The position numbers were made by a program, and so were the translations under genes. DNA of 36,457 nt. Origin: Deltaproteobacteria bacterium. GTDB taxonomy: Bacteria; Desulfobacterota; Desulfobulbia; Desulfobulbales; SURF-16. Below, piece after piece: positions 2,156-30,440 of the stretch. The notes below the pieces were generated by a model. It made no database searches, was not told the origin of the DNA, and saw nothing but the letters and a program-made list of their open reading frames with translations. Location of the stretch: contig JACRCD010000027.1 in the NCBI GenBank assembly GCA_016219175.1, positions 1 through 36,457 on the forward strand. The letters are read 5' to 3'. The number at the start of each line of letters is the position of its first letter. Position 1 is the first letter of the stretch.

Positions 2156-3184
2156 ATGAAATACGACTTCCCTTTGTTAAATAATCCGCAAACATTAATT
2201 CCATTAATGAATCAATTTAATGGACAAACATTCATTCCCAAAGCAACTTGTCTTGACGCGATATTTATTCCGTTTAAAGGCAATAAAAAATATATATCAT
2301 CATTGCTGTTCGACCTCAAGTGGTTCACAGGCAACATATTTTTAATGCCATCATCTTGCTATGATTTTGATAAGTCTGCTTTAAAGCAATATCCAAATGC
2401 CAAAATACTATTTGTTGATGACTCAAGATTTGTTTCTTTATTTAATAATCTAAAAACGTCTGGGCATAAACTTTCTGTGGCAGATTGTTGGTGTTGGGAT
2501 TTGCCAATAAAACGTAACTACGCTATATATTTTTCTTTAAAAGAACGGTTTAGAAAAATATTGTTAATCGATGATGACATGATAGGTATCAACCAAACCA
2601 TCATTGAAACAGGAACACATCTTCTTGAACAATTTGTAGCCGTTGGGAGTTTTGTAGAAAATTTTCCAGACACATCTATTATTGGTCATGTAGAAATTGA
2701 ACAACATGTAAATGTAAAATGTTTCTTAAGTGGAAGCTTCTTATTTGTTTCTCCACAACAGATAAAAAGTTTTTTTCCAAAAATTTATAATGAAGATTGG
2801 TTGTTCATGATTCCAATGATTTTAGATAGCAAAATTTGTACTGCCGGAGATATACATCAAAAATCATATGATCCTTTTCATAAACCAGAAAAAGCGGTTT
2901 TTCAAGAATTTGGCGAAGTTATTGCTGAAGGACTGTTTGCACTATTGTCAAAATCAGCATTTAATCTTCGACATAGCAAAGAAATATGGAATGATGTAAT
3001 TAACAATAGGAAAACATTGTTGATTGAGCTGTTGGGAAACACAAAGAATAAGTTGCAAATGAATATAATAGGTAAAGCTATATCTAAAAATGCTGAATTG
3101 AATCCATCAGATTGCATTGATTATATATATTCGTTAGACCATGATACTGATTCATGGTGTACCTTTTTAAAGGAGATTTCATAA
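2156..3184 (+). CDS. Glycosyltransferase-like protein (GT-A fold suspected)
   Basis: This 342-aa, low-GC gene starts at ATG 2156. A longer frame opening at 2057 lies inside attC and is rejected. Residues 134-142 (RKILLIDDDM) resemble the DxD metal/nucleotide-sugar motif at the end of a GT-A strand. FLSGSFLFV (190-198) followed by NEDW (212-215) resembles the acceptor-site acidic motif of family-2-like enzymes. There are no signal peptide or membrane segments, so it is probably cytoplasmic. It is the first gene after the attC and overlaps the next gene by one base (TAATG), so the four genes are almost certainly cotranslated. The substrate is unknown, and the GT assignment is inferred from motifs only. 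Confidence 0.6.
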   Translation: MKYDFPLLNNPQTLIPLMNQFNGQTFIPKATCLDAIFIPFKGNKKYISSLLFDLKWFTGNIFLMPSSCYDFDKSALKQYPNAKILFVDDSRFVSLFNNLKTSGHKLSVADCWCWDLPIKRNYAIYFSLKERFRKILLIDDDMIGINQTIIETGTHLLEQFVAVGSFVENFPDTSIIGHVEIEQHVNVKCFLSGSFLFVSPQQIKSFFPKIYNEDWLFMIPMILDSKICTAGDIHQKSYDPFHKPEKAVFQEFGEVIAEGLFALLSKSAFNLRHSKEIWNDVINNRKTLLIELLGNTKNKLQMNIIGKAISKNAELNPSDCIDYIYSLDHDTDSWCTFLKEIS

Positions 3185-3984
3185 TGAGCAACCAAGTAAT
3201 TATCAACACCTGTGATGGGTATAATATTTCAGCCGAACACACTATTTCCAACAAAAAGAAAGTCGTTTTGTGGTTACACGGTATAACTGTAGATAAAAAT
3301 GAATATTTAGATTTTTTTAAAGATGGTGCTGAGTTTATCGCAAAAAAAGGTATTGATTCGCTAAGAATTGATTTTAGGGGACATGGCGATAGCTCAGGGA
3401 AATCTAATGATTTTTCAATAATTGGTCAAATCATTGATGCTAAGTCGGCGATTGAATTCATTAAGATAAATTATGAAGCAGATGTAGAAATATATATTTT
3501 AGGCTGCAGTTTTGGTGCTCCGCCAGCACTCTATACATCAATAGAATACCCTGAGATTAAAAAAATATTCCTGATATCACCTGTCTTATCCTACCAGAGG
3601 ACTTTTCTCTCACCTGAAACTGAATGGGCTCGGGAATTATTTAATTCAGAAACAATTTCGCAATTAGATAAAACAGGTCTACTGTTGTTTAATGAAAATT
3701 TTCCTATCGGTATAAGACTTGTCGAAGAAATGAAAGTGATAAGGCCTGAGGCGGATATACATTTGATTAACCAAAAAATAATAATTGTGCATGGCGAAGC
3801 TGACTCAATGGTACCTTTTGGTGTTTCAAAAGAAGTATCAAGCAAATTTCAAAACATACATTTGGTACCGATCAAAGGCATGGATCATGGTTTTATGGAT
3901 GAATTAGATGAAGAAGGGACTGGGATAACGTCACAAAATAATAAGAAATTTATTTATGAATTAATCGTGGAGAATTGTTTATGA
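3184..3984 (+). CDS. Alpha/beta hydrolase (esterase/acyl-hydrolase type)
   Basis: A 266-aa alpha/beta hydrolase with a complete catalytic triad. The nucleophile Ser109 lies in GCSFG, Asp207 in HGEADSMVP, and His235 in GMDHGF. HGI at residues 32-34 supplies the oxyanion-hole region, and RIDFRGHGDSSG (61-72) is typical of lysophospholipase/esterase-like members. No signal peptide is seen. The start at 3184 is preceded by AAGGAG, and a longer frame from 3154 is less likely. It overlaps both neighbours (TAATG upstream, ATGA downstream). The natural substrate is not identifiable. Next to a glycosyltransferase-like protein and an acyltransferase, an ester or thioester substrate in glycan or lipid modification is possible but inferred. 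Confidence 0.85.
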   Translation: MSNQVIINTCDGYNISAEHTISNKKKVVLWLHGITVDKNEYLDFFKDGAEFIAKKGIDSLRIDFRGHGDSSGKSNDFSIIGQIIDAKSAIEFIKINYEADVEIYILGCSFGAPPALYTSIEYPEIKKIFLISPVLSYQRTFLSPETEWARELFNSETISQLDKTGLLLFNENFPIGIRLVEEMKVIRPEADIHLINQKIIIVHGEADSMVPFGVSKEVSSKFQNIHLVPIKGMDHGFMDELDEEGTGITSQNNKKFIYELIVENCL

Positions 3985-27224: not shown

Positions 27225-30080
27225 ATGATGAAAACCCGGCTGAAACATCTCTTTACATTCCTTATTCTGTTCGTCTTGCTTCCGGCCTCGCATCTGGCGG
27301 CCGCGCCCGCGCCGGACACGGGCCAGACGAAGTGCTACGACAATGACGTGGAAATAACCTGCCCGCAGCCGGGGGAGCCGTTTTACGGCCAGGACGCCCA
27401 GTATGCCGGCCCGGCCAGATCCTACACCAAATTGGGGGCCTACGATGTGGAACTGCCGGATACGGCCACCTACGCCGACGGTTGGCTTGCCACCCGGGAC
27501 AACGTCACCGGTCTGATCTGGGAGATGAAGACCGATGACAACACCATCCACGACAAGGATAACAAGTATACCTGGTGCGACACCAACCCGGCCACCAACG
27601 GCGGTTATGCTGGCACCTGCGGCAACGGCACCGACACCGAGGATTTCATAAACGTCATCAATGGCGGGAATTTCGGCGGCCATGATGATTGGCGTCTGCC
27701 GTCGGTCAAGGAACTGTCGTCTTTGCTGAACGCCAGCATTCCCATGCCTGGCCCGACTATTGACACCTCCTACTTCCCGGACACTGTGTCTTCCGACTAT
27801 TGGTCGTCTACTACTAGCGTCAACTATACGTACAACGCGTGGCGCGTGCATTTCACCAGTGGTTACGTCGCCAGCCTCAATAAGTCTAACAGTTACTATG
27901 CTCGCGCGGTGCGAGCCGGACAGGCTGGGGCATTGGGTGATTTGGTCATTAACGGCGACGGCACGGTGACGGACACCGCCACGGGGCTGATGTGGCAGCA
28001 GTGCAGCCTGGGTCAGACCTGGAATCCGGCCACGCAAGGCTGCGACGGCACGGCAACCCCTGTTGACTGGCAGGATGCCCTAGAGCAGAGTGAAAATCTC
28101 AACATGGCCGGTTACAGTGACTGGCGATTACCCAACCGCAACGAACTTCAGAGCCTGGTGGATTATTCTCGTTATTCTCCGTCTATCGACACCACCTCTT
28201 TTCCTGGCACTAAGCCGTCCTACTACTGGTCGTCTACTACCAGCGCCAATTATACGAACTACGCGTGGTACGTGCATTTCAACTATGGTCACGTCGGCTA
28301 CGACTATAAGTCCTTTAGTTACTATGCTCGCGCGGTTCGAGCCGGACAGAGTGGGGCATTGGGTGATTTGGTTATTTCAGGCCTGACCCCCGCAAGCGGC
28401 CCTGTGACGGGTGGCACCACGGTAACCGTCACAGGGGAGAATTTCGGTTCCGAACAGGGCGCGGGTTTCGTGACTTTCGATGGGGTAGAAGCAACAATCA
28501 CCTCCTGGAACGATACGGAAATTGTCTGTGTCACCCCTTCCCGGCCTGCGGGTGCTGTTGAGCTGGCCGTGACCCGGAATGACGGCGCCTTCGCCATCCG
28601 CGCCGCGTCCTTTACATTTTTTCTGCCGGGTTATGGCTTCAATCAGCGGCCGGACACGGGCCAGACGAAGTGCTACGACAACAGTGTGGAAATAACCTGC
28701 CCTCAGCCGGGGGAACCGTTTTACGGCCAGGACGCCCAGTATGCCGGCCCGGCCAGATCCTACACCAAGCTGGGCTATGGCGATGTGGAGCTGCCGGATA
28801 CGGCCACCTACGCCGACGGCTGGCTTGCCACCCGGGACAATGTCACCGGGCTGATCTGGGAGATGAAGAGTGATGACGGGTCCATCCACGACAAGGATAA
28901 CAAGTATACCTGGTGCGACACCAACCCGGCCACCAACGGCGGCGATCCCGGCATCTGCGGCAATGGCACCGACACCGAGGATTTCATAAATGCCATCAAT
29001 GACGGGAATTTCGGCGGCCATGATGATTGGCGGCTGCCCACGGTCGAGGAGCTGTCTGCTTTGGTGAACAGCTCTATTCCTGATCCTGGCCCGGTTGTTG
29101 CCCTCGCTTATTTCCCCGGTACAGTGTCGTCCGGCTACTGGTCGTCTACTTCCGGCGCCTATAACACGTACAACGCGTGGTACGTGAGTTTCCTCAAAGG
29201 TAACGTCTACAACGGCAATAAGTCCTACAGTTACTATGTGCGCGCGGTGCGAGCCGGAGAGGCTGGGTCATTGGGTGATTTGGTCACTAACGGCGACGGC
29301 ACGGTGACGGACACCGCCACGGGGCTGATGTGGCAGCAGTGCAGCCTGGGTCAGACCTGGAATCCGGCCACGCAAGGCTGCGACGGCACGGCAATTTCTG
29401 TTAACTGGCAGGATGCCCTAGAGCAGAGTGAAAATCTCACCCTGGCCGGTTACAGTGACTGGCGGCTACCCAACCGCAACGAACTTCAGAGTCTGGTGGA
29501 TTATTCTCGTTCTTATCCGTCTATAGACACCACCTCTTTTCCAGGCACTAAGCCGTCCAACTACTGGTCGTCTACTACCTACGCCGGTAGTACGTACTAC
29601 GCGTGGTACGTAAGTTTCCACTATGGTTACGTCAACTACGACATTAAGTTTAGTTTCTATGTGCGCGCGGTGCGAGCCGGACAGGGTGGGGCATTGGGTG
29701 ATTTGGTTATTTCAGGCCTGACCCCCGCAAGCGGCCCTGTGACGGGCGGGACAACGGTAACCGTCACCGGCCAGAACTTTGGATCTGAGCAGGGCGCGGG
29801 TTTCGTGACTTTCGATGGGGTAGAGGCAACAATCACCTCCTGGAACAATACGGAAATCGTCTGTGTCACCCCTTCCCGGCCCGCGGGTGCTGTTGAGCTG
29901 GCCGTGACCCGGGATGATGGCGGCAGCGTTACCATGGCCTCCGCCTTTACATTTTTCGACCCGGTTGACATGGATTTCGATGGGGATGTGGACGGCCTTG
30001 ATGCGGTGCTTTACATCCAGGCGCTTCAGGAAGGAACAGACCTGACTCTGGTTGATTTTGCCGGGAGTTTCGGGCGGTGA
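27225..30080 (+). CDS. Secreted tandem DUF1566/IPT-TIG protein with DGR-like variable regions
   Basis: A 951-aa protein. ATG 27225 is eight bases after AGGAGA. A signal peptide (LFTFLILFVLLPASHLAAA) ends near residue 28. Unit 1 starts at about 30 and unit 2 at about 476, offset 446 residues. Each holds two DUF1566 domains (C-type-lectin-like/FGE-like, with WRLP...EL and YWSST...RAVRAG motifs) and one IPT/TIG immunoglobulin-like domain (about 382-466, 827-912). Residues 913-951 (DMDFDGDVDGLDAV) resemble a dockerin or EF-hand calcium loop. The ends of the four DUF1566 domains vary by the codon pattern typical of DGR targets. It is probably exported and displayed or bound at the surface for ligand recognition, with selectable binding faces. 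No reverse transcriptase gene is adjacent. Confidence 0.9.
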   Translation: MMKTRLKHLFTFLILFVLLPASHLAAAPAPDTGQTKCYDNDVEITCPQPGEPFYGQDAQYAGPARSYTKLGAYDVELPDTATYADGWLATRDNVTGLIWEMKTDDNTIHDKDNKYTWCDTNPATNGGYAGTCGNGTDTEDFINVINGGNFGGHDDWRLPSVKELSSLLNASIPMPGPTIDTSYFPDTVSSDYWSSTTSVNYTYNAWRVHFTSGYVASLNKSNSYYARAVRAGQAGALGDLVINGDGTVTDTATGLMWQQCSLGQTWNPATQGCDGTATPVDWQDALEQSENLNMAGYSDWRLPNRNELQSLVDYSRYSPSIDTTSFPGTKPSYYWSSTTSANYTNYAWYVHFNYGHVGYDYKSFSYYARAVRAGQSGALGDLVISGLTPASGPVTGGTTVTVTGENFGSEQGAGFVTFDGVEATITSWNDTEIVCVTPSRPAGAVELAVTRNDGAFAIRAASFTFFLPGYGFNQRPDTGQTKCYDNSVEITCPQPGEPFYGQDAQYAGPARSYTKLGYGDVELPDTATYADGWLATRDNVTGLIWEMKSDDGSIHDKDNKYTWCDTNPATNGGDPGICGNGTDTEDFINAINDGNFGGHDDWRLPTVEELSALVNSSIPDPGPVVALAYFPGTVSSGYWSSTSGAYNTYNAWYVSFLKGNVYNGNKSYSYYVRAVRAGEAGSLGDLVTNGDGTVTDTATGLMWQQCSLGQTWNPATQGCDGTAISVNWQDALEQSENLTLAGYSDWRLPNRNELQSLVDYSRSYPSIDTTSFPGTKPSNYWSSTTYAGSTYYAWYVSFHYGYVNYDIKFSFYVRAVRAGQGGALGDLVISGLTPASGPVTGGTTVTVTGQNFGSEQGAGFVTFDGVEATITSWNNTEIVCVTPSRPAGAVELAVTRDDGGSVTMASAFTFFDPVDMDFDGDVDGLDAVLYIQALQEGTDLTLVDFAGSFGR
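27798..27920 (+). other. DGR-like variable region 1
   Basis: End of the first DUF1566 domain (residues about 192-232), from TAT TGG to the GC-rich tail GCGCGGTGCGAGCCGG. Variable codons include CGC after GCG TGG, ACC AGT after TTC, and GCC AGC CTC AAT after GTC. A template carrying AAC or AAT at each of these is consistent. Confidence 0.65.
28221..28345 (+). other. DGR-like variable region 2
   Basis: End of the second DUF1566 domain (residues about 333-374). Variable codons: TAC after GCG TGG, AAC TAT after TTC, and GGC TAC GAC TAT after GTC. The flanks are closely similar to those of region 4, while the variable codons differ. Confidence 0.65.
29136..29258 (+). other. DGR-like variable region 3
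   Basis: End of the third DUF1566 domain (residues about 638-678). Variable codons: TAC after GCG TGG, CTC AAA after TTC, and TAC AAC GGC AAT after GTC. AAA is an exception to the constant third base. Confidence 0.65.
29559..29680 (+). other. DGR-like variable region 4
   Basis: End of the fourth DUF1566 domain (residues about 779-819). Variable codons: TAC after GCG TGG, CAC TAT after TTC, and AAC TAC GAC ATT after GTC. Compared with the others it has lost one codon after AAG, in frame. Confidence 0.65.
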
Positions 30081-30142: not shown

Positions 30143-30401
30143 GGTTTGGTTGGGTGGGCACGGGGTTAACGTGCTCACCGTGACGATTGCGGTGTTGTCG
30201 TTTTATCCGCGTGCGCAACAAACGGCCGTTGCGCACCCTACCCGGCTCCGGGCGGTGAGGTGGCAGACAAGGAGAAAACCATAATCGGTTTGGTAGGGTG
30301 GGCACGGGTTTATCGTGCCCACGCGGGATTGTCGTGATCGTTCAATTTCTACCTTCCCGCGTGCGCAAACGATACGGCTGTTTGCAGCACCCCACCCGGC
30401 T
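30143..30401. repeat. Tandem REP-like units, copies B (30143-30247) and C (30287-30401)
   Basis: Two units repeat with a period of 144 bases. Each starts GGTTTGGT, has a GTGGGCACG/CGTGCCCAC-type hairpin (in C, 30298-30306 with 30314-30322), then a second hairpin and CACCC(T/C)ACCCGGCT. They fill the space between the DUF1566 gene and gpmI, and may act as a bidirectional terminator or mRNA stabiliser. Confidence 0.75.
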
Positions 30402-30440
30402 GCGGGCGGTGAGGGTGGAGAGACAAGGGTAAAAACGTGA

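Follow-up and report, generated by a model that had tools for sequence, protein, structure and literature searches.

The window analysed here, a stretch of 36,457 nucleotides on contig C90 of a Desulfobulbales genome (GCA_016219175.1; G000 below), contains a gene whose product has four domains of the Lcl_C (DUF1566) family, and its sequence supports the view that each domain ends in a variable region (VR) of the type made by diversity-generating retroelements (DGRs). We take this view because homologous VRs in the Lcl_C genes of five genomes of the same order adjoin a DGR reverse transcriptase (RT) and a template that matches the variable codons. The assembled genome gives no support for a DGR that still works; the four VRs were probably written by a DGR, orphaned by the loss of the retroelement and left as frozen variants. 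DGRs write their VRs by mutagenic retrohoming. During retrotransposition from the template repeat (TR) to the VR, the adenines of the template are converted (PMC3240598).

The initial annotation had placed four DGR-type VRs at the ends of DUF1566 domains. Pfam finds four stretches of PF07603 (Lcl_C/DUF1566) in the protein (E 1.7e-139, 457.7 bits, above the cut-off), and the VRs match the span proposed for them. They are about 126 base pairs (bp) long, comprise the terminal 42 or so codons of each domain and are all internal to a single open reading frame (ORF). The features are as follows.

27225..30080, + strand: gene for the four-VR protein, 951 amino acids from the ATG at 27225
27311..28613, + strand: duplicated A-B-TIG unit, copy 1
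27492..27914, + strand: Lcl_C domain 1, type A (Pfam E 1.2e-30)
27798..27923, + strand: VR1, ending in GGACAG as in the VRs of intact Lcl_C DGRs
27960..28340, + strand: Lcl_C domain 2, type B (Pfam E 1.9e-42)
28224..28349, + strand: VR2
28371..28619, + strand: TIG/IPT domain 1, placed from the repeat register, 1335 bases ahead of the second copy
28649..29948, + strand: duplicated A-B-TIG unit, copy 2
28830..29252, + strand: Lcl_C domain 3, type A (Pfam E 1.2e-29)
29136..29261, + strand: VR3, ending in GGAGAG, the sole deviation from GGACAG in the gene
29298..29675, + strand: Lcl_C domain 4, type B (Pfam E 1.4e-38)
29562..29684, + strand: VR4, shorter by one codon
29706..29954, + strand: TIG/IPT domain 2 (Pfam, residues 827-909)

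The two copies of the A-B-TIG unit differ at 27/300, 12/248 and 29/257 positions in the three stretches compared. The product is probably a secreted, multivalent binding protein of the form (Lcl_C-Lcl_C-TIG) x 2, with a hydrophobic N-terminus that was judged to be a signal peptide by eye alone.

Lcl_C genes with VRs and DGRs were found in G018 (locus L077), G011 (L078), G033 (L079), G049 (L080) and G231 (L197). In the first four, RVT_1 matches adjoin the Lcl_C homologues, and the loci hold repeat pairs with one copy inside the Lcl_C gene and its partner directly before the RT. The DGR-class RTs of the relatives carry IGNLTSQ and YVDD, and an ORF between the VR and TR copies of G018 matches bAvd (PF22296, E 4.6e-11). 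Among repeats retained when at least 70% of their mismatches fell at A (at least 75% for G231), the mismatches at template adenines numbered 16/16 in G018; 23/24, 19/19 and 10/13 in G011; 18/18 and 24/24 in G033; 11/12 and 20/21 in G049; and 23/23 and 25/26 in G231. Non-adenine mismatches were therefore 0 or 1 in nine of these ten listed alignments and 3 in the tenth. At 4 of 13 RT loci (L136, L137, L138 and L140), no TR-VR repeat passed the 70% filter. When the templates of the relatives are aligned to the window VRs at codon level, their AAC and AAT codons sit on the variable codons of the window, as does the template translation NVNFNNGNVNNNNK. Opposite.AW.V.F..G.V....K of the window copies, the template of G018 has NAWNVNFNNGNVNNNNK, and from this alignment the variable codons of the window are the AAC/AAT codons of the template. 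The proposal that an AAC/AAT template had been mutated at its adenines, made from the window by itself, is thus borne out by real templates; the accompanying remark that the invariant codons hold few adenines is not, since AAG has two and yet stays the same across all four window copies and the templates.

Several other features of DGR loci in the relatives were recorded. The DGR RTs of G018 (L077:5800-7299) and G011 (L078:3709-5250) have a MutS domain I at the C-terminus (PF01624, E 4.7e-14 and 3.5e-7, respectively); the portions available of the literature searched for MutS with DGRs held no description of such a fusion. The second VR of G011 (L078, near 2960-3240) has an insertion of about 60-70 bases within the variable region. 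G231 has, besides its Lcl_C DGR, a second RT near the DGR profile on a separate contig (G231:C52 and G231:C16). G003, of the same genus as G000, has a DGR (L135, on G003:C142) with a different type of target, in which, among repeats that passed the 70% filter, 29/32 and 26/31 mismatches fall at template adenines. This DGR was rejected as a possible donor: a DNA search with VR2 found nothing in G003 at E 0.001, and the target of the DGR reads differently.

We then defined a TR-A site as one where two or all of the templates of G018, G011 and G033 have A, the more distant template of G049 being excluded. Over 39 codons of the four window copies, variation is seen at 29 of 41 TR-A sites and at 12 of the 76 remaining sites (Fisher p 4e-9), ten of the latter 12 being third codon positions; the other 12 of the 41 TR-A sites are constant across the four VRs. 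With the two VR-like regions of contig C55 added, the counts are 32/41 and 16/76, and with all eight VR-like regions of the genome 35/41 and 23/76. The initial annotation had described variation at codon positions 1 and 2 with position 3 mostly fixed, and the six codon columns that it listed occur in the sequence exactly as given, together with the exceptions AGT/AAA, GTG/GTA and GCT/GTG. Where positions 1 or 2 differ, position 3 also differs in 12/74 comparisons at template-asparagine columns and in 40/98 upstream in the same domains (p 7e-4, from codon pairs that are not independent). A null model based on codon usage, applied to the six VRs of the window and C55, gave an expectation of 153 +/- 10 third-base differences, and 40 were observed, with 0 of 5000 draws as low; this null disregards shared ancestry, a point covered by the upstream control. 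Of the 18 template-asparagine columns, 15 were counted and three close to the 3' end excluded; in these 15, 59/60 window codons end in C or T, as do 89/90 with C55 and 26/30 for C68, compared with 64% over the whole gene.

The backbone of the VRs is also more uniform than the domains that carry it. Between type A and type B domains, 44-49 of 102 sites differ upstream, compared with 4-8 of 75-76 non-adenine sites in the VR (VR1-VR2 7/76, VR2-VR3 6/76, VR1-VR4 8/75, VR3-VR4 4/75), and third-base agreement between A and B, in windows of 12 codons, rises from 30-60% (start columns 0-18) to 75-100% (start columns 36-60). For VR2 and VR4, which occupy equivalent places in the duplicated unit, the differences amount to 16/39 at TR-A sites, 4/75 elsewhere in the VR and 68/805 in the flanks. 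One explanation would dispense with a DGR altogether and attribute the pattern to drift or positive selection acting on exposed lectin loops, together with gene conversion between copies. The 12/76 varying non-adenine sites, the extension of the equalisation into the linker and a conversion-like levelling of Lcl_C ends in a tandem Lcl_C ORF of G018 speak in its favour. This ORF (1575 amino acids, L077:7266-11993) adjoins the DGR, and its VR-like ends are equalised and barely diversified: third bases differ at 5-15 of 41 codons, and positions 1 or 2 at only 3-8 of 41. Conversion by itself would level both kinds of site, as in that ORF, whereas the window copies keep their variable residues. Selection leaves unexplained the third-base agreement in the VRs relative to upstream, as well as the coincidence of the variable sites with the adenines of real templates. 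In a second control, the tandem Lcl_C proteins on contigs C60 and C22 of the same genome, 27-33 of 45-46 third bases differ in the VR-like part and the end is not equalised. An origin free of any DGR is accordingly extremely improbable in our judgement.

The retroelement itself was sought in the genome assembly, which consists of 97 contigs and is 98.4% complete. No RVT_1 match was found in G000, nor any match at E<=1 to a four-sequence RT profile (built partly from G011, G018 and G033), and a repeat search for a DGR RT likewise gave none. DNA queries with VR1 and the G018 TR returned just Lcl_C-coding VRs and short chance matches. For bAvd, the best PF22296 E value in G000 was 0.78, with none above the cut-off; two PF05635 proteins are encoded, on C43 and C67. 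The initial annotation had proposed a search of the genome for a DGR RT and a template of about 120 bp, and had named their absence from the genome and its relatives as evidence against it; neither was found in G000, and both are present in the relatives. VR-like DNA in G000 is confined to C90 (four regions), C55 (two) and C68 (two), that is, to eight regions in three genes. In the C68 gene (L081:178-2220), two VR-like Lcl_C domains are followed by repeats of the type DWDGDGVDDIGVFRP.

A DGR might survive in unassembled or unbinned DNA, with the window VRs as remote targets diversified in trans. The division of the assembly into 97 contigs leaves room for this, and DGRs that act in trans, along with a three-VR target (PMC10907252), as well as remote perfect VRs (PMC3521204), are on record. 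However, the VRs deemed to be served in trans, as PMC10907252 describes them, equal the template at every non-adenine site, whereas the eight VR-like regions of G000 differ mutually at 4-17 of 75-76 such sites, so that no one template fits all. Within the window the mutual differences are 4-9 of 75-76 (5-12%), which exceeds most intact VR-template pairs, and at most one of the four could therefore fully match a single template. The completeness of 98.4% also argues against a hidden DGR, as does G002, the other VR-bearing member of the genus, in which (at 88% completeness) no match to the RT profile was found either. We consider diversification in trans unlikely.

A search at E<=0.001 found VR-like DNA in just two of six genomes from the genus, G000 and G002. 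G002 has a homologue with one VR, ending in GGACAG-TGA, which differs from the window copies at 5-8 of 75-76 non-adenine and 14-22 of 39-41 TR-A sites. An ORF beside this target resembles a four-helix IVP protein and was not accepted as Avd. The restriction to two genomes would suit a lineage that never owned the retroelement and received its target genes in diversified form from a relative that had a DGR; other genera of the family do have Lcl_C DGRs (G011 and G018), and acquisition has been raised as an alternative for one remote target of Treponema denticola (PMC4891356). Yet the eight VR-like regions in three genes, and the concentration of the VR2-VR4 differences at TR-A sites of a duplicated unit, would demand that the duplication took place in the donor, and the gene is surrounded by apparent metabolic genes (ORFs judged by eye). 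Such an acquisition appears very unlikely. VR2 gave no match at E 0.01 in plasmid and phage collections, and a degenerate VR-backbone pattern gave 0 exact matches in viral contigs.

Across the order, a DNA search at E<=1e-6 found VR-like DNA in 16 of 257 genomes, with at most three candidates scored per genome; G049 falls outside the 16 despite having such a DGR. An RT scoring E <1e-200 to the profile is present in four of the 16 (G011, G018, G033 and G231), and the other 12 showed no close RT (cut-offs 1 and 1e-20). Weak profile matches were seen in G048 (8.6e-12) and G051 (9.0e-18), and the VR start motif was not found in the stretch of G127. The same orphaning may thus have recurred in the order, the count of 12 serving as a lead only: several of the assemblies are 83-95% complete, and some matches may be ordinary Lcl_C ends.

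The fold of the variable domains was modelled with AlphaFold. For domain 2 (27948-28355), an alignment of 90 sequences gave a mean predicted local distance difference test score (pLDDT) of 95.8, superseding an earlier run with 14 sequences (pLDDT 42.6). The closest solved fold is the C-terminal domain of Legionella pneumophila Lcl (PDB 8q4e; Foldseek E 1.2e-4; Z 12.7, 109 residues aligned, root-mean-square deviation 2.3), followed by Bdellovibrio Bd2740 (Z 11.3) and many C-type lectins. A PDB sequence search gave weak matches, the best to capsid proteins (E 0.0046), with Lcl (8q4e) at E 0.19. Legionella Lcl is not known as a DGR target. Mtd of phage BPP-1 (1yu0-1yu4; Z 9.5-9.9) and TvpA (2y3c; Z 9.1), both DGR variable proteins, share the C-type-lectin fold with the window domain at an alignment identity of only 10-20%. 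In the model, the VR is at the end of a C-type-lectin-fold domain, with the template-asparagine residues at model residues 99-125, in the final strands and loops. The window protein may show several distinct binding surfaces together.

The history that we favour, DGR writing followed by orphaning, would have run as follows. An adenine-mutating RT would have copied an A-rich template with AAC/AAT codons, presumably a single one for all copies, and retrohoming would have placed the mutated copies over the four window VRs and probably also over the VRs of the C55 and C68 genes. In this way the backbone would have become uniform and the asparagine codons random, and such writing would have taken place also after (or during) the duplication within the gene. 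The RT and template would then most likely have been lost, rather than missed in assembly, and the VRs would have drifted since at non-adenine sites; with the retroelement gone and such drift under way, the gene would be a frozen set of DGR-made variants. That writing has stopped is suggested by the contrast between the non-adenine differences among the eight VRs of the genome and the 0-1 in nine of the ten TR-VR alignments of the relatives. A further idea, possible but rather doubtful, is that the eight DGR-made VRs in three genes have been kept as a fixed repertoire after the mutator was gone, a fossil library that duplication and recombination now maintain and perhaps also shuffle.

A number of observations weigh against this history. 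The adenine labels were taken from templates of other genomes. Intact DGRs show non-adenine differences too: 3/13 mismatches in one G011 piece, and 3/32 and 5/31 in the G003 DGR with its other type of target. The linker codons past the VR keep a third-base agreement of 91-100% in all six pairs of window copies, so duplication, recombination or conversion of the domain end must also have contributed. The non-adenine divergence between VR2 and VR4 is indistinguishable from that of their flanks (p 0.5), which leaves the timing loose. The C68 copies fit more poorly, with 4/30 template-asparagine codons that do not end in C or T and 9-17 non-adenine differences to the other copies. Ordinary C-type lectins score equal to or above Mtd and TvpA, so that the fold match shows the fold only. 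Finally, no cassette remnant was found in G000, the loss being deduced from absence, and an RT locus of a few kilobases could be missing from an assembly of 97 contigs at 98.4% completeness.

Three further observations concern the surroundings of the VRs. Short AT-rich similarity suggested that the linker past each VR might be read-through of an old 3' flank, which is not claimed. The C-terminal tail at 29969-30077 contains an acidic D-x-DGDVDGLD motif, which also occurs at the ends of the C55 protein and of a protein of G007; the window protein gave no Pfam match there, and the tail resembles the dockerin/EF-hand type. In the gap 3' of the gene, at 30143-30421, lie two pairs of GC-rich 35-36-bp repeats whose copies are 86-89% alike.

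The codon pattern in raw sequence exposed DGR targets that RT-centred surveys overlook. One DGR survey states that remote targets are undetectable by its approach (PMC8144416), and another that targets on contigs without an RT may be missed (PMC4159848). Orphan VRs and intact relatives, taken together, make it possible to study whether a hypervariable binding surface that has lost its mutator decays, becomes fixed in useful variants or is shuffled.

There are precedents both for orphan VRs and for genes with more than one VR; what is particular here is that a single ORF has four internal VRs and that no retroelement was found. DUF1566 ranks with the commonest DGR target domains (PMC4159848, PMC6642488), in agreement with the initial annotation, which had named DUF1566-like folds as DGR targets. 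T. denticola isolates without the core DGR resemble the window in that their VRs differ mostly at adenines while neither RT nor TR is present (PMC4891356); this is another organism, likened by description, and four VRs per ORF are not mentioned in the available part of that report. Several VRs in one target, as in the window, are described for Marichromatium purpuratum, with three VRs in an ORF of 3366 bp (PMC3521204), for 31 multi-VR DGRs that have their VRs in one ORF (PMC6642488) and for DGR 4 of Thiohalocapsa PB-PSB1, with three VRs in its target (PMC10907252); unlike in the window, an RT is present in these cases, within the same DGR or genome. The Lcl_C DGRs of the same order differ from the window in having the RT and TR beside the target (in G018 also the bAvd match), and most of their VRs are C-terminal, before the stop codon, whereas the four VRs of the window are internal and the assembly yielded no RT or TR. 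They share with it the domain family, a homologous VR backbone, the same variable codons and the VR end GGACAG.

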